DNA of 7,173 bases from JALTID01 sp027004335 [NCBI: bacterium] (GTDB lineage Bacteria > JALSQH01): positions 1-7,173 of the forward strand of contig JALTID010000205.1 of assembly GCA_027004335.1 (NCBI GenBank), given 5' to 3'. The stretch's first letter is position 1. Each line of letters starts with the position of its first letter. The position numbers were made by a program, and so were the translations under genes. The notes under the pieces were generated by a model, which saw only the letters and a list, made by a program, of their open reading frames with translations, made no database searches and was not told the DNA's origin. Below, in pieces: positions 734 through 6,253 of this stretch.

Positions 734-774
734 AATAAAAATCCTCTCTTCCCCCTAAAACCAGGGTAGAGAGG
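732..774 (-). terminator. Intrinsic (Rho-independent) terminator of the lipoprotein/barrel operon
   Basis: On the minus strand CCTCTCT (768-774) pairs perfectly with AGAGAGG (743-749). After an A-A mismatch the stem continues with CCC (764-766) against GGG (751-753) and a possible T-G pair, closing an apical loop of about 8 bases. ATTTTTATTTT follows directly (732-742). The hairpin starts 23 bases after the stop codon of the barrel gene. The T-rich side is present only in the minus direction, so it terminates the operon rather than anything on the plus strand. Confidence 0.9.
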
Positions 775-797: not shown

Positions 798-1784
798 TCA
801 AAATTCGTAGCTGTACTTAAAGACAACACCTCCTAACTGATCTGGATTCTTCACTCCTGAAATAGTACTCTTAAGAGGCACCATCACATACATACCGGCA
901 AGGGCAAATGTCCCGTATTCTGTCTGAAAACCGGCCTCCATCACCCCGTTAAACCCAAGGGCAAAACCATTATAATCTTCAGGTCTCTTAATGTAGTATG
1001 AGTTCTGTTTTAAATAATAGCTGGTATGGTAAAAACAGAAAGAAAGATAGGGTCTGAAACCAAGATAAAATTTGTCAGTTAACCCATAATTCAACCCTGG
1101 TCCCAGAGAAATGATGTTCATAGAATTTTCCCAGTGAGCTTCGAACTCACCTATCTGTGGATCACTCTGAGAGAAATCAGTTTTACCACCCAATCTTGTA
1201 TAATCTATACTTCCAGCTAAAATTATTCCGGGATTACTCTTGAAAAGTCCCTTTACATTAAACTGACCACCCACTCCAAAAACTAGAGAATTATAGATAT
1301 TCCCTATGAGATAACCTCCAAAGATGAAAGGCTCTATCCCTTTCTTTTCTTTCTCGGAAGAAACACGAATAAGGGCGATACTGCCTCTTGGAGGAACCCA
1401 TCCATAAATAATATAATCCCCAGGCATGGAGATAGTAAGCTTCCAGATCATAGTTCTTCCAAGATAAAAATTACCCCACCTGCGCCGGGTTGGAAGAGCA
1501 GTAAAAACCTTCTTCTTGAACAATTTTTTGTTTCTGAATATTTCAATTCCCACTTTTTGAGGCGTAGGGGAAATTAGAAGAGGTACAATTTTAACTCTGA
1601 AGGTACCGGCAGATCCAATTTTCAAAAGAACAGGATATTTTTTACCCAGATACGCATATGCTCTGCCCTCCAGACTCGTTCTCCCCCCTTTTCTTGTAAC
1701 AACCTGGATTTTTGCATCCGCCATCAGTGATGAAGAAAAGAGAAAAATTATAATAACTACAAAAAACTTTCTTACATCCTTCAT
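798..1784 (-). CDS. Secreted protein with a soluble N-terminal domain and an eight-stranded outer-membrane beta-barrel
   Basis: I do not recognise a named family. Numbering is from the ATG at 1784 (328 residues). Residues 1-24 form a signal peptide: charged MKDVRK, a hydrophobic FFVVIIIFLF core, and an ADA signal peptidase I site after A24. Residues about 25-145 are basic, beta-rich and without membrane segments (several alternating strands, e.g. GTFRVKIVPLL and PGDYIIYGWV), suggesting a small beta-sandwich. A charged linker EKEKKG follows. From about 153 to the end I count eight amphipathic, aromatic-rich strands, the last ending in YSYEF; a terminal Phe is the usual recognition signal for BAM-assembled barrels. 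This resembles OmpA/OmpW-sized barrels in architecture only. The gene is second in an operon with the giant lipoprotein and is followed by a terminator. An in-frame GTG at 1796 would give 332 residues and a GTGA overlap with the upstream stop; I prefer the ATG for its better Shine-Dalgarno site. A structural, anchoring or transport role is inferred from domain type only. Confidence 0.85.
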   Translation of the reverse strand: MKDVRKFFVVIIIFLFSSSLMADAKIQVVTRKGGRTSLEGRAYAYLGKKYPVLLKIGSAGTFRVKIVPLLISPTPQKVGIEIFRNKKLFKKKVFTALPTRRRWGNFYLGRTMIWKLTISMPGDYIIYGWVPPRGSIALIRVSSEKEKKGIEPFIFGGYLIGNIYNSLVFGVGGQFNVKGLFKSNPGIILAGSIDYTRLGGKTDFSQSDPQIGEFEAHWENSMNIISLGPGLNYGLTDKFYLGFRPYLSFCFYHTSYYLKQNSYYIKRPEDYNGFALGFNGVMEAGFQTEYGTFALAGMYVMVPLKSTISGVKNPDQLGGVVFKYSYEF

Positions 1785-1790
1785 CTCAAA

Positions 1791-1794
1791 CCTC
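1791..1794 (-). promoter_or_regulatory. Ribosome binding site deciding the barrel-gene start
   Basis: GAGG on the minus strand lies 6 bases before the ATG at 1782-1784. The alternative GTG at 1794-1796 has only a poor GGA a few bases upstream. The site overlaps the lipoprotein stop codon (1793-1795), so ribosomes finishing the lipoprotein arrive at this site, which suggests translational coupling. Confidence 0.5.
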
Positions 1795-4700
1795 ACTGTT
1801 CCGAAAACTCAATCACATAATCTTTCATCAAGCTGTGACCACTGGTATCTTTTACACCCTGAGTAAATACCAGATAGTAACTATTACCACTCTGTAAAGA
1901 CAAACCGTCACAGGTTATCTTCTTATTGCCGTTATCAAAAGCGTAAGAGCCACAACTAATATTCCCTCCAGAATCTGCATCGTATAGATAGAAAGTAGTA
2001 TTATCCACAGATGTGGGATCAACACCAATATTAGTATAAACAGTTACAGATGAAGAATAGTTTATCGTTTCACCATCAGATGGAGTACTGCAAAGAACCT
2101 CGGGGACTGAATCTGTAGCGGAAAAACTAAAGGTGTAATCTGCTCCCATGGGTGTCCCACCAAGATCAGTTATAACAGAGCCATCAAGTGTCACACTATA
2201 GGTCACTCCACCTGCAAAGGGTTCAGCAGGGATAAAGGAGAAGGAATTTGTGGTCCACTCGCCACCCATTGGTACGATACATCCCTCCACACTGAATGTT
2301 TTTCCACAGGCGCTGTAAGTGACCTGAAAACTTCCACTTCCACCAGAAGTATCAGGATAAATCGTATTTACTGCTATAGGTTCACTGAAATTAACAACTA
2401 CTGTGGTTGAGGTTGTTACTCCCGTTGAGCCATTGGCGGGGGATGTTGATACCACCACCGGAGCATCTGACTCCGTAGTAAAATTATATATCTCCTTTAC
2501 CCCACTAGAATTACCTGGATCATAATTGTTCAATGCCATATCCTTTACATACTTGGATAGATAAACATAATAGGTTGTTCCTCCTATATATGGAGAATCT
2601 GGAACAAAAATTATCTGATGAACTGAGTAACTATCTATCACCTTTACCTTCCCACTCAGACAGTTTATTGAATTTAATAAACCTGGGGCCGTATCAAGCC
2701 CTTGCACAGAAGATACACAAAAATCTACCTGATTTGTTACTGAAGCTGGATAAATATTTTCATCAAAATCCACAACCACTGGCGAGGTTACCGTTGTTCC
2801 TCCAGTTTGAGTCAGAGGGGTAGTAACATTCTGAACATTAGGTGGATTAGATTCCACTGTAAAGGTAAAAGATACATCTATGCCCCCATTCCTGCTGGCA
2901 TCTGCCGCATCAGAAGTAGAAATAAGGGTGTAGTCTTGGCCATGGACCATGTTCTCAAGTGGTGTAACCCTTACAATTCCCTGATCATCAGCGGGGTTTA
3001 CAGGATCATAATCAATTCTGATTGGTAAATGATTACTGCTGGAATCTTTAAGATAAAGTATATTATCCTGAAGTGACGCAACAAGCATATCCTGGTCATA
3101 AGTTAGATCAAACCATTCATCCCCATGTATTGTTTGGCCATTACCTGAATTACTTGTTGAACCATATTCACTCACCACACTAACTGTTCCAACACCATTG
3201 TTAGCGTTTCCAGTAGGCGTAAAAGTCCCACTTGAATATATAACTGGATTGCCTACTTCATCACGAATGTCTGAATAGATATAGTAGGTATGTTGATCTC
3301 CATTGGTAAATTCTGGAACTGGTATAAACGTCGCGCTTCTTGTTCTATCATCATAAGCAATTAAACCTACCTTCCATTTCCCTGCTGTATCATCATATAT
3401 TTTTAAAGTATCATCATTTATCGTGGTTATATCCATTGCCCTTGAAAAAACTATTATGAAATTCGTGGTCTGTTCCTTAGCATATTCCACAATATAAGTT
3501 GTTTTTTTACTGGTATGGAATTTATATCTATAAGTCCTTGCAAGAGGATTATTCTGATATGTTCTAATTCCACTCTCTCCACCAATAACAACTGCAATAT
3601 AGTCTTTGTCAAAATCAAGATAGGATAAGGGAACAAGCTTAAAAGACTTACTATTTAATTCTTCAATGGAGCCAGTTACTTTAGAACCGTAACTATCCTC
3701 TATGTATAAAGAATCAGTTGTCACAGTTGTAACATTTATAGGTTCACCAAATTTCACAATTAGATAAGAAGTAACGGGAACATCTTTATTTTGTCCGGCA
3801 AGAAGGTTCCTGGTAACTTTATAATTTTGCATTCCTACACTACTGATAAGGGGATCATTCCTTGTAGTAAAAGAGCTTACATATTCATTGAGATGTTCTC
3901 CACTATTTGATTCAATTCTTGCCGTGAGATGTATCTTATAAAGCTGACCATACCTGAGGGGAAGGACTCCTCTCCTACATGGAGTACTTTGAGGTTGTGG
4001 GTAGATAAATATTCTATCTATTGTGTTAGCAGTTCCATCACCAAGTCCGTCATAGGTATCACCAGAATCAGGCAGAAGATCTGTAGTATCATCATATTTT
4101 ATTTTCACAGGGACTGTTCTTACAAAACCATTATCATCTGTATAGGTCAAATAAGCATCAGTATTGTCAATTGAGGACTTTTTCATCATTGTGGTAAATT
4201 TTACCTCTATAACTTGTGAAACGGGGACTCCAAGTTCTCCATTTGGAGGTAGTACATACTCAATCAGTGAAGATGTTCTTGTTCTAAATCCAGAGGTAAA
4301 TGTCTCTGTTAGAGATTGATTATGTATATCCAGAACATTTCTGGAAATTACTACAGTATAAACTGTATCATACTCAAGTTGCTGTGAAGGAATAAGGACC
4401 GCTGTTCTCGGATAGGTCGCTGAAAGCGGATATTTAATAGTGGAAGTAACTGCCTGAGATGCTAAGGTCTCAGGATTTGAATAGCCTGTAACATCCCCTT
4501 TCACAATAAAGAAATTAGGTTCATAACCATCACTGGAATAGCTGCTATCTGAAGTGAGAGTTTTCCCATATATAGGGGAAGAAAATGTTATATATATCTT
4601 GCCGTTTATATCAAAACCTACCTTACCAGGATGGGGAATGATCTTTTCAACAGTAAGTGGAGGATATTTAGCTGTGGTGAAAGTATAATCTACATCCTGG

Positions 4701-6154
4701 GAGAGAAATCCACCCTCAATTGTTGCATCAGAAGCTCTAACCCCATTTACTCCACCTTTTATCCAGACATGATATAAAGTATTGTATGATAACTTCTCCA
4801 CAGGTTTAAGTGTAACTTTTGTTCCACCAGACAACGTCAGAGTAGCAGGTATTTTTGTAGTAGTATCAGTGTCATATGTAAGATAAATATTGTCTGATGT
4901 TACAGAATCTGGAGATAGTTCATTGCTAAAAATAAGCTGAATGGTTGTAGAGGGGTCTATATCAACTGCACCCTTTGAAGGAAGTGCAGCAACAAGGGTA
5001 AGAGGGGGAGGATCAAGAGTCTTGAAAGTTATAGTTACATTATTAGGGATCAACCAGCCCTGTTCCCATGTGGCTCTTGTAGATTTTATCCCCGAGGGAC
5101 CACCTGAAATTAATATAGAATATGTCGTGGAATATGTAAGTGAAGAGGGATAAATTGTTACCACAGTACTACCCGGTGAATACTGGTAATTAAATGCAAT
5201 AGGCGTCCCAGTTGTTGTATCAATCAAACCTATATTTCCTGCAAAAGATGATGGGGAAATTGCCTCTGAGAAATATAATTTTACTACAGAAGAGAGAGCA
5301 ATATTATCTGATTGATCAGAGGGAGATGAAAAAGCAAGGAACAGTGGAGGGGGATCAACAATTTTAAAAGGAATATTAATTGCATCAGGTTCCAGCCAAC
5401 CAGAAACATCTGTTGCTCGCTGACTCTTTACTCCTTTAGGACCACCTATAATTTCTATTTCATACATAGTTGAATAATCAAGATAACCCTGCTCCTTCAC
5501 ATGGCCTGAAAAAGGTGTAAGAGAAAGTGTAACAACTGTAGATGATGGGGAATAGGAAAGATTAAAAGAAATATTTTTCCCATAAAATGGACTTTCAGGA
5601 TCAACATTTTTTACCACAATACCTGAAAGAGAGTCAGGATTAACAGTTTCAGAAAAATAAAGTTTTATAGTTGGTGTTCTTGAATTATTATCGCTACCAG
5701 GCTCTGGAGTGGAGTATATAAGCTGGAGAGGGGGTGGATCAACTGTGTAAAAAGAAAAATCAACTTCCTTGGCAAGATTGGAACCATCCTTAGCTCTCCT
5801 AAGCCCCTGAGTAACTTTTACAATATAAGTCGTACTGTATTTAAGAGGTTTCTCTGGCATAAATGTCACAGTGTAGGATGTTGCCTGGTAGGAGTAGGTC
5901 CCATTTATCTGGTTACCCGCTTTATCAGTAACTACGATGGCCTGGGAATTAATGGTAGACTGAACTACTCCATCGGAAAAGGTGATTTTAATCGCGGTAT
6001 CCAGTGGTACATTATCCTGTCCCGATGGTGATACCGCAATTACCTGAAAAGGATGAACCACCTCGATGGTGAGTTTCTGCTTACTACATGAAAAAAGAAA
6101 AAATGCAAGCAGAAAAATAAAAATAGCTTTACCTCCCTTCAAAAATCTATCCAT
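1793..6154 (-). CDS. Giant outer-membrane lipoprotein with about twelve tandem Big_5-type Ig-like domains
   Basis: A 1453-residue protein. Residues 1-22 are a lipoprotein signal (MDRFLKGGKA, then a hydrophobic core) ending in a lipobox LFS-C23; the +2 residue is Ser, not Asp, so by the E. coli Lol rule it would go to the outer membrane. The rest is a chain of about 110-135-residue units that begin with a P-x-x-G-type turn, then a strand ending in F-S-x-x, and finish with a Y-x-x-x-Y-x-V strand and F-x-T. This is the Big_5 bacterial Ig-like pattern. Approximate units: 36-137, 138-267, 271-380, 385-495, 500-627, 630-765, 769-882, 885-985, 990-1100, 1104-1227, 1231-1346 and 1349-1453. Units 8 and 9 are the most diverged. 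No enzymatic domain, membrane helix or C-terminal sorting signal is visible. A rod-like surface or periplasmic adhesin, scaffold or stalk is the inferred role. It is the first gene of a two-gene operon with the barrel protein, with its own promoter and a strong ribosome site. There is no frameshift or internal stop. Confidence 0.9.
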   Translation of the reverse strand: MDRFLKGGKAIFIFLLAFFLFSCSKQKLTIEVVHPFQVIAVSPSGQDNVPLDTAIKITFSDGVVQSTINSQAIVVTDKAGNQINGTYSYQATSYTVTFMPEKPLKYSTTYIVKVTQGLRRAKDGSNLAKEVDFSFYTVDPPPLQLIYSTPEPGSDNNSRTPTIKLYFSETVNPDSLSGIVVKNVDPESPFYGKNISFNLSYSPSSTVVTLSLTPFSGHVKEQGYLDYSTMYEIEIIGGPKGVKSQRATDVSGWLEPDAINIPFKIVDPPPLFLAFSSPSDQSDNIALSSVVKLYFSEAISPSSFAGNIGLIDTTTGTPIAFNYQYSPGSTVVTIYPSSLTYSTTYSILISGGPSGIKSTRATWEQGWLIPNNVTITFKTLDPPPLTLVAALPSKGAVDIDPSTTIQLIFSNELSPDSVTSDNIYLTYDTDTTTKIPATLTLSGGTKVTLKPVEKLSYNTLYHVWIKGGVNGVRASDATIEGGFLSQDVDYTFTTAKYPPLTVEKIIPHPGKVGFDINGKIYITFSSPIYGKTLTSDSSYSSDGYEPNFFIVKGDVTGYSNPETLASQAVTSTIKYPLSATYPRTAVLIPSQQLEYDTVYTVVISRNVLDIHNQSLTETFTSGFRTRTSSLIEYVLPPNGELGVPVSQVIEVKFTTMMKKSSIDNTDAYLTYTDDNGFVRTVPVKIKYDDTTDLLPDSGDTYDGLGDGTANTIDRIFIYPQPQSTPCRRGVLPLRYGQLYKIHLTARIESNSGEHLNEYVSSFTTRNDPLISSVGMQNYKVTRNLLAGQNKDVPVTSYLIVKFGEPINVTTVTTDSLYIEDSYGSKVTGSIEELNSKSFKLVPLSYLDFDKDYIAVVIGGESGIRTYQNNPLARTYRYKFHTSKKTTYIVEYAKEQTTNFIIVFSRAMDITTINDDTLKIYDDTAGKWKVGLIAYDDRTRSATFIPVPEFTNGDQHTYYIYSDIRDEVGNPVIYSSGTFTPTGNANNGVGTVSVVSEYGSTSNSGNGQTIHGDEWFDLTYDQDMLVASLQDNILYLKDSSSNHLPIRIDYDPVNPADDQGIVRVTPLENMVHGQDYTLISTSDAADASRNGGIDVSFTFTVESNPPNVQNVTTPLTQTGGTTVTSPVVVDFDENIYPASVTNQVDFCVSSVQGLDTAPGLLNSINCLSGKVKVIDSYSVHQIIFVPDSPYIGGTTYYVYLSKYVKDMALNNYDPGNSSGVKEIYNFTTESDAPVVVSTSPANGSTGVTTSTTVVVNFSEPIAVNTIYPDTSGGSGSFQVTYSACGKTFSVEGCIVPMGGEWTTNSFSFIPAEPFAGGVTYSVTLDGSVITDLGGTPMGADYTFSFSATDSVPEVLCSTPSDGETINYSSSVTVYTNIGVDPTSVDNTTFYLYDADSGGNISCGSYAFDNGNKKITCDGLSLQSGNSYYLVFTQGVKDTSGHSLMKDYVIEFSEQ
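1796..6049 (-). repeat. Array of about twelve diverged Ig-like (Big_5) domains within the lipoprotein
   Basis: This protein-level repeat covers residues 36-1453. The recurring unit opening can be seen as SPSGQDNVP, STPEPGSDN, SSPSDQSDN, ALPSKGAVD, IPHPGKVGF, LPPNGELGV, TSPANGSTGV and STPSDGETI, each followed 12-18 residues later by a (T/Y/N)FS-like strand end. The units are too diverged at the DNA level to recombine easily, except possibly the N-terminal group. The exact number is uncertain by about one because units 8 and 9 (885-1100) lack parts of the motif. Confidence 0.8.
4655..5740 (-). repeat. Closely related N-terminal sub-array with DPPPL linkers
   Basis: Residues 139-500 hold three units that each begin with a DPPPL linker (139-143, 267-271, 381-385), with a related YPPL (497-500) opening the next unit. 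Near its end each carries GG-x-x-G-(V/I)-(K/R)-(S/A)-x-x-AT: GGPKGVKSQRATDVSGWL at 237, GGPSGIKSTRATWEQGWL at 351 and GGVNGVRASDATIEGGFL at 467. The match is far stronger than between other units, so these probably arose by later duplication. Confidence 0.75.
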
Positions 6155-6160
6155 TCAACT

Positions 6161-6166
6161 CCTCCT
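6161..6166 (-). promoter_or_regulatory. Strong ribosome binding site of the lipoprotein gene
   Basis: AGGAGG on the minus strand, within AAGGAGGAG, 6 bases before the ATG at 6152-6154. It fixes the start, which also gives an ideal lipoprotein signal peptide. Confidence 0.85.
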
Positions 6167-6224: not shown

Positions 6225-6253
6225 ATTATAATGGAATATAGTGAGATTGTAAA
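6225..6253 (-). promoter_or_regulatory. Sigma-70 promoter of the lipoprotein/barrel operon
   Basis: On the minus strand TTTACA (6248-6253), a 17-base spacer and a perfect TATAAT (6225-6230). Only one base differs from consensus and the spacing is optimal. The expected transcription start is near 6218, giving a leader of about 64 bases before the ATG at 6154. The -35 box begins 4 bases past the lpd stop codon, so the operon need not depend on read-through from lpd. Confidence 0.78.

Follow-up and report, generated by a model that had tools for sequence, protein, structure and literature searches.

The DNA analysed here, referred to as the window, is a stretch of 7,173 nucleotides that makes up the entire contig JALTID010000205.1 (C205) of the bacterium JALTID01 sp027004335 (assembly GCA_027004335.1). 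The source is a 1.5-Mb draft genome, 80% complete, from a barely sampled phylum, two of whose genomes, including this one, are in our comparison set. On the minus strand, the gene order is lpd (cut by the contig edge), a gene for a long lipoprotein, a gene for a likely outer-membrane protein (herein the barrel protein), and a gene for a Gfo/Idh/MocA oxidoreductase (also cut). As judged from sequence, the lipoprotein is a member of an old family in which the order of the distal domains is largely kept, while the membrane-proximal domains were duplicated separately in different lineages. The features of the locus are listed in Table 1.

Table 1. Features of the lipoprotein-barrel protein operon, with positions in the window
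Feature	Positions	Strand	Basis
Promoter-like site TTTACA-17-TATAAT	6225..6253	-	11/12 consensus match; 4/1000 intergene shuffles reach it
Ribosome site AGGAGG, lipoprotein gene	6161..6166	-	sequence
Lipoprotein gene, 1453 aa, 12 Big_5 Ig-like domains	1793..6154	-	ORF and Pfam/HMM
Lipoprotein signal peptide and lipobox (LFS-C, Cys23)	6086..6154	-	sequence; simple pattern rule
Big_5 domain 1; best match in both relatives is their domain 1	5750..6043	-	HMM, domain comparison
Big_5 domains 2-4, membrane-proximal; lineage-specific duplication (2-3 45%, 3-4 41% identical)	4742..5713	-	HMM, domain comparison
Big_5 domains 5-12, distal; 5-11 match G015 in order, 5/8 match G189 at expected offset	1805..4645	-	HMM, domain comparison
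Ribosome site GAGG, overlaps lipoprotein stop	1791..1794	-	sequence
Barrel gene, 328-aa likely outer-membrane protein, no family match over cut-off	798..1784	-	ORF, family searches
Signal peptide of barrel protein	1719..1784	-	sequence pattern; cleavage site by eye
N-terminal basic beta domain (predicted) of barrel protein (26 K+R, 6 D+E)	1341..1718	-	AlphaFold2, charge count, fold matches
C-terminal putative beta-barrel, ends in Phe	798..1340	-	amphipathic-strand score
Terminator-like hairpin 774-743 and T-rich tail	735..774	-	folding

The lipoprotein and barrel genes are laid out as an operon. The promoter-like site lies 71 bp ahead of the lipoprotein ATG, within a 103-bp intergene, and the shuffles that rarely reach its score were dinucleotide shuffles of that intergene; over the whole window, promoter-like sites occur at chance level (19 observed vs 21.2 expected). 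The lipoprotein stop codon, TGA at 1795-1793, is followed by 8 bases and then by the barrel-protein ATG at 1784-1782, ahead of which an in-frame GTG is also present at 1796. Downstream of the barrel gene, the minus-strand hairpin is followed by ATTTTTATTTT, with a folding energy of -19.2 kcal/mol across 735-800, a figure without a shuffle control. This hairpin is missing from a simple terminator scan, probably because of its inner loop. A near-consensus promoter shared by the two genes, a gap of 8 bases with a ribosome site over the upstream stop, and a terminator after the barrel gene had all been proposed in a first-pass annotation, and each is borne out here. The same annotation spoke of a self-contained operon, which is slightly overstated: the operon does have its own promoter-like site and terminator-like hairpin, but in the stretch that leads from lpd, upstream and on the same strand, to the lipoprotein gene, no terminator turned up in the simple scan, so read-through from lpd is possible. 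On the other side of the operon, positions 678-797, upstream of the Gfo/Idh gene, are AT-rich and fold into a second possible long hairpin.

The lipoprotein is built almost wholly of bacterial immunoglobulin-like (Ig-like) domains. Pfam Big_5 (PF13205) matches it in 11 stretches (E 8.5e-113; 370.8 bits vs a gathering cut-off of 23.6), and a hidden Markov model (HMM) trained on the Big_5 loci of our sample finds 12 domains, which tile the mature chain. The lipobox, FLLAFFLFSC, occupies residues 14-23, making Cys23 the candidate for acylation. The earlier description of a 1453-residue, lipid-anchored chain of about twelve Ig-like domains thus holds. The protein is acidic (91 K+R, 149 D+E), has no match in the PDB by sequence at E 0.1, and matches one PHROGs family of unknown function.

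Few relatives over most of the chain were found. A search of 98 genomes, the source genome among them (E 1e-5; up to five candidates scored per genome), matched 13: the source genome itself, one genome (G015) in which most of the chain was matched, and 11 with short matches of one or two domains. The G015 relative is an 11-domain lipoprotein encoded on JAJRZV010000102.1 of the metagenome-assembled genome Dive96_bin4.233; it is 30% identical to the window lipoprotein by BLASTP and 33% in a MAFFT alignment, and its domains are in the same order. A review lists JAJRZV01, which comes from a black smoker, under Candidatus Bobupiota (PMC11382960). When the G015 protein was searched against a wider set of 385 genomes (E 1e-12; up to two candidates scored per genome), seven genomes were matched, including G015, and one further long match appeared, in G189 (E 5.2e-99). 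Taken from an internal start that resembles that of a lipoprotein, the G189 protein comprises 17 domains by the same HMM. By the simple pattern rule, the proteins of the window and G015 are lipoproteins, and the G189 protein was so judged by eye. A scan of contigs with the alignment gave 27 pattern hits, of which only the G015 contig was confirmed. Since few candidates were scored per genome and the scan confirmed that contig only, three family members is a lower bound; the count leaves aside other long Big_5 chains, such as those at loci L130 (16 domains), L095 (11 domains) and L084 (10 domains).

The order of domains in these relatives was compared using non-overlapping domain cuts only, as linkers shared between neighbours would inflate the scores of adjacent domains. 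Nine of the 11 G015 domains (1 and 4-11) are the best match of the same-numbered window domain, which none of 20000 permutations equalled. Domain 1 of the window likewise pairs with domain 1 of the G189 protein, and domains 5, 6, 8, 10 and 12 find their best G189 match at an offset of +5 (five of the eight distal domains). The membrane-proximal domains behave differently. In the window, the domain pairs 2-3 and 3-4 score 84 and 69 bits against each other, vs 28, 31 and 50 bits against their G015 counterparts. In G189, a two-domain unit has been duplicated, its copies alternating as domains 2/4/6/8 and 3/5/7 (37-43% identical), while the distal domains show no such alternation. From this pattern of repeat similarity in the window and G189, it follows that the region separating domain 1 from the distal half was rebuilt by duplication in at least two lineages. 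By domain matching, the number of proximal domains is 3, 3 and 8 across the family. As the comparison set comprises one genome per species, this variation is seen only between distant lineages. The domain pattern suggests a stalk of variable length with a conserved outer part.

The second gene of the operon had been read as encoding an eight-stranded outer-membrane barrel with an extra soluble domain. A separate N-terminal beta domain is indeed predicted: modeled alone by AlphaFold2 from a single sequence, it came out as all beta, with a pLDDT of 80.8 in the best model, which contains no helix of four or more residues, and of 53.9 to 70.0 in the other four. Its fold matches are beta-sandwiches of several unrelated kinds (Foldseek TM about 0.4-0.5; best VIA Z 8.2), among them carbohydrate-binding modules, TNF-like proteins, histone-deacetylase-type plant domains and BcsB. 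A CBM6/35-like jelly roll was matched with a Foldseek E of about 1e-3 and a VIA Z of up to 7.7 for CBM6, unrelated families scoring equally or higher, and the 50 matches listed from a viral fold library are mostly phage proteins, with long targets and low target-side TM. Because these matches are middling and mixed and four of the five models scored lower, glycan binding by this domain is suggested only weakly.

The eight strands, on the other hand, are a pattern counted in the sequence by eye, and the whole-chain AlphaFold model is unusable from residue 161 onward (pLDDT 20-28). The last 177 residues are 19% aromatic and 14% glycine and end in YSYEF. On an amphipathic-strand score, the protein ranks 19th among 606 proteins from the sampled loci, with 29 of 1000 shuffles reaching its value; in a cruder test, 275 of 2000 shuffles did so. 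The score is unspecific, as the Gfo/Idh enzyme of the window itself ranks 3rd, and hence a barrel in the C-terminal part is likely rather than demonstrated. Family searches of the barrel protein gave nothing over cut-off in Pfam, no match at E 1 in NCBIfam and none at E 0.1 in PHROGs, and the best PDB match by sequence had an E of 1.6. The barrel part had no Pfam match at E <=1, and the N-terminal domain, searched alone, had one below cut-off, to Phage_DNA_bind (E 0.21).

If the two proteins worked together as a dedicated pair, their homologues should tend to stay adjacent, as the first-pass annotation expected. The barrel protein had no match at E 0.001 in the 97 other genomes of the smaller set or in the 385 of the wider one, and none at E 0.01 in the other genome of its phylum (G001). 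At E <=0.1, 12 of the 385 genomes gave a match, the best at 0.009, vs about 38 expected by chance if the per-genome E is taken at face value. A pattern scan of contigs, which reaches close relatives only, confirmed none of 165 hits. Neither of the other two lipoprotein genes is seen to have such a partner. In G015, no barrel-like reading frame was recognized by eye in the 229 bp past the lipoprotein stop, beyond which a fragment of a Mutator-family transposase reaches the contig edge, and this negative therefore covers immediate adjacency only; across the whole G015 genome, the barrel protein found no match at E 0.1. The gene that follows in G189 encodes a 178-residue, secreted-looking protein without a Pfam match. 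An adjacent barrel-like gene is thus present in one of three family members, the window copy, which goes largely against the expectation of conserved adjacency, with the reservation that the members are few and G015 could be followed for 229 bp only.

The neighbours of Big_5 genes at large tell a similar story. Our sample of these neighbours is non-random, comprising 74 regions hand-picked among the matches listed, 13 further regions and the window, and contains 97 Big_5 open reading frames (ORFs) in 88 loci; 42 of these ORFs have a downstream neighbour on the same strand within 100 bp. A barrel-like gene follows in three of these 42, vs five of 290 other genes (p 0.067, window counted); with the window excluded, the figures are 2/41 vs 5/290 (p 0.21), and against a background of secreted-looking other genes (2/117), p is 0.28. 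Barrel-like genes lie directly downstream of Big_5 genes at L131 (FadL-type, Pfam match below cut-off), at L144 (without a Pfam match) and at L032 (OmpA-type, with a match over cut-off). On the amphipathic-strand score, two of the three proteins rank 1st and 6th, and the OmpA-fused one, of which only the last 178 residues were scored, ranks 283rd. L032 falls outside the rule used for counting, since its OmpA-fused protein lacks an aromatic end. None of the three was counted as the same pair because their Big_5 proteins have only 3, 2 and 3 such domains. With no relatives of the barrel protein at E 0.001, adjacency in one of three family members and neighbour counts near background, the pairing is not a recurrent one in the genomes searched.

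A dedicated pair, with the barrel serving to dock, flip or thread the lipoprotein and so bring the rod to the outside, as a split analogue of inverse autotransporters or of RcsF-OmpA, is on this evidence rather unlikely. Moreover, an eight-stranded barrel is narrow for the passage of folded Ig domains. We keep the idea in view, despite the lack of comparative support, because of the tight spacing of the genes, with their shared promoter-like site and terminator, and the opposite charges of the acidic lipoprotein and the basic N-terminal domain; complexes of OmpA with RcsF are a precedent (PMC7553776). In its most specific form, the periplasmic beta domain of the small barrel would capture the acidic, lipid-anchored rod and fix or pass it at the outer membrane, as a split inverse autotransporter so far seen only in this rare lineage. 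This two-gene display device is less probable still. With the Big_5 proteins of other architecture at L144 (4816-9268) and L131 (5946-10174), the secreted-looking proteins that follow end in Trp, the one at L131 having a weak FadL-type match and the one at L144 none; the Big_5 protein itself has an LTD match over cut-off at L144, and weak OB-fold and FlgD-like matches at L131.

The genomic site also bears on the question. In G001, which represents a sister genus and is 97% complete, a single contig carries both lpd and the Gfo/Idh gene, oriented alike, and their products are 61% and 88% identical to those of the window. Between them lie six genes on the opposite strand, five with Pfam matches: NeuB, a cytidylyltransferase, a polysaccharide flippase, a pyruvyl transferase and an asparagine synthase; a UDP-GlcNAc epimerase gene comes after the Gfo/Idh gene. 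G001 has a single match to the lipoprotein, within a different protein that resembles one in the source genome as well. Judged from these two genera, which differ in the content of the site, the operon sits at a variable position next to polysaccharide genes. Two unrelated envelope genes may have met in such a variable surface locus and come to share a transcript without functional meaning, and this also fits the failure to see the pairing in the other two family members and to find any relative of the barrel protein. We nonetheless regard a chance meeting as unlikely, since a ribosome site over the upstream stop and a gap of 8 bp suggest a selected coupling. Elsewhere in these two genomes, L035 (2784-5732, on contig C199 of the source genome) and L036 (4599-7604, in G001) encode a secreted protein of about 1000 residues with a single Big_5 domain close to the N-terminus; its neighbours, compared by eye, are similar in both genera, unlike those of the window lipoprotein.

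The reading that we tentatively prefer is an Ig rod anchored in the outer membrane, with a base of variable length and a conserved outer part, for which the barrel protein is a co-expressed, lineage-specific companion. Cleavage by signal peptidase II would leave Cys23 to be acylated, followed by twelve Ig-like domains in line. An Ig-like domain is about 4 nm long, so that twelve in line would measure about 50 nm if extended. Domain 1 would be the base next to the membrane, and domains 2-4 would form a stalk that varies in length through duplication. Domains 5-12 would be the conserved working part, its most likely role being to bind at or close to the cell surface. Translation of the barrel gene would probably be coupled to that of the lipoprotein and yield a separate outer-membrane protein, whose basic N-terminal domain would face the periplasm and most likely bind an anionic envelope glycan. 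The barrel protein would be co-expressed with the rod in this lineage, without the rod family depending on it. An earlier proposal that the two genes form a surface apparatus, a lipoprotein stalk docked on or displayed through a partner barrel, fares unevenly: the stalk is favoured by the kept order of the distal domains and the duplication of the proximal ones, but the docking or display has gained no support.

Several points weigh against the preferred reading. The sorting of the lipoprotein to the outer membrane and the length of the rod rest on general knowledge, and the chain could be folded back or lie in the periplasm. Window domains 2 and 3 are not best matched to the same-numbered G015 domains, window domains 7, 9 and 11 do not find their best G189 match where the offset predicts it, and the family in the searched genomes numbers only three. 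The small gap between the genes also speaks for a functional connection of some kind. Finally, the spread of the N-terminal domain models and the unspecific barrel score weigh a little, the fold matches of that domain being middling and mixed and the barrel putative. If the rod did stay in the periplasm, an outer-membrane lipoprotein might stabilize the envelope together with a barrel tethered to peptidoglycan by its basic domain. The N-terminal domain, which is strongly basic and by our own count precedes an even number of strands and hence would face the periplasm, agrees with this arrangement. However, a chain of about 50 nm would exceed the usual width of the periplasm, and proximal parts of 3, 3 and 8 domains would be odd for a spacer of fixed width. 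A periplasmic rod is thus improbable, though it deserves slightly more weight than a chance meeting of the genes.

Long chains of Ig-like domains are known from other surface systems. Lig domains are Big_2, whereas Pfam gives Big_5 for the window lipoprotein, and the two are set apart by this domain class. Leptospiral Lig proteins are, like the protein proposed here, described as surface proteins of repeated bacterial Ig-like domains (PMC7821625). Periscope proteins and stalk adhesins with BIg repeats are likewise single tandem Ig-like chains anchored at one end, their length differing by repeat duplication (PMC9704523). The window lipoprotein is unlike them in having a lipid anchor and in varying between distant lineages rather than strains; nor are its repeats highly identical, the best of nine pairs reaching 45% in the window and 43% in G189. 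With the inverse autotransporters, such as intimin and invasin, it has in common an Ig-like chain and an outer-membrane barrel (PMC7718877 and PMC9704523). Type Ve proteins join the two in one polypeptide, whereas here there are two ORFs with a stop between them, a lipobox on the Ig chain and a barrel protein with an N-terminal soluble domain.

The gene order also recalls Slam, whose barrel gene often adjoins that of its lipoprotein substrate, and which is described as two TPRs and a predicted 14-stranded barrel (PMC7857515). In contrast, the barrel-like part here spans about 180 residues and the N-terminal domain is all beta in the models; as its best model holds no helix long enough, no TPR is expected there. 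According to the same review, phyla that display surface lipoproteins without Slam suggest undiscovered export systems. For this reason, a co-transcribed lipoprotein and barrel is a concrete test case for export, although conservation disfavours a dedicated partnership. Open-access literature, searched with limited wording, yielded nothing on an Ig-like lipoprotein and a barrel in one operon, nor on Ig-like lipoprotein adhesins of uncultured bacteria. The lipoproteins compared here define a family of rare lineages in which much of the domain order is kept and the membrane-near part is rebuilt by duplication. If the window protein is a surface stalk, the idea of a variable-length stalk would extend to lipid-anchored proteins of uncultured phyla, with domains 5-12 as the working part.

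Other Big_5 genes of the sample keep different company. FecR-like genes, named by eye, lie directly upstream of Big_5 genes at L037 (6788-7735), L145 (10560-11447) and L148 (10246-11085). The Big_5 proteins at L088 (5799-13000) and L089 (5959-9027) stand beside prepilin-like proteins with a GFTL-type N-terminal motif; by eye, the genes downstream at both loci begin like those of type IV prepilins, and the Big_5 protein of L089 itself has a prepilin-like start.

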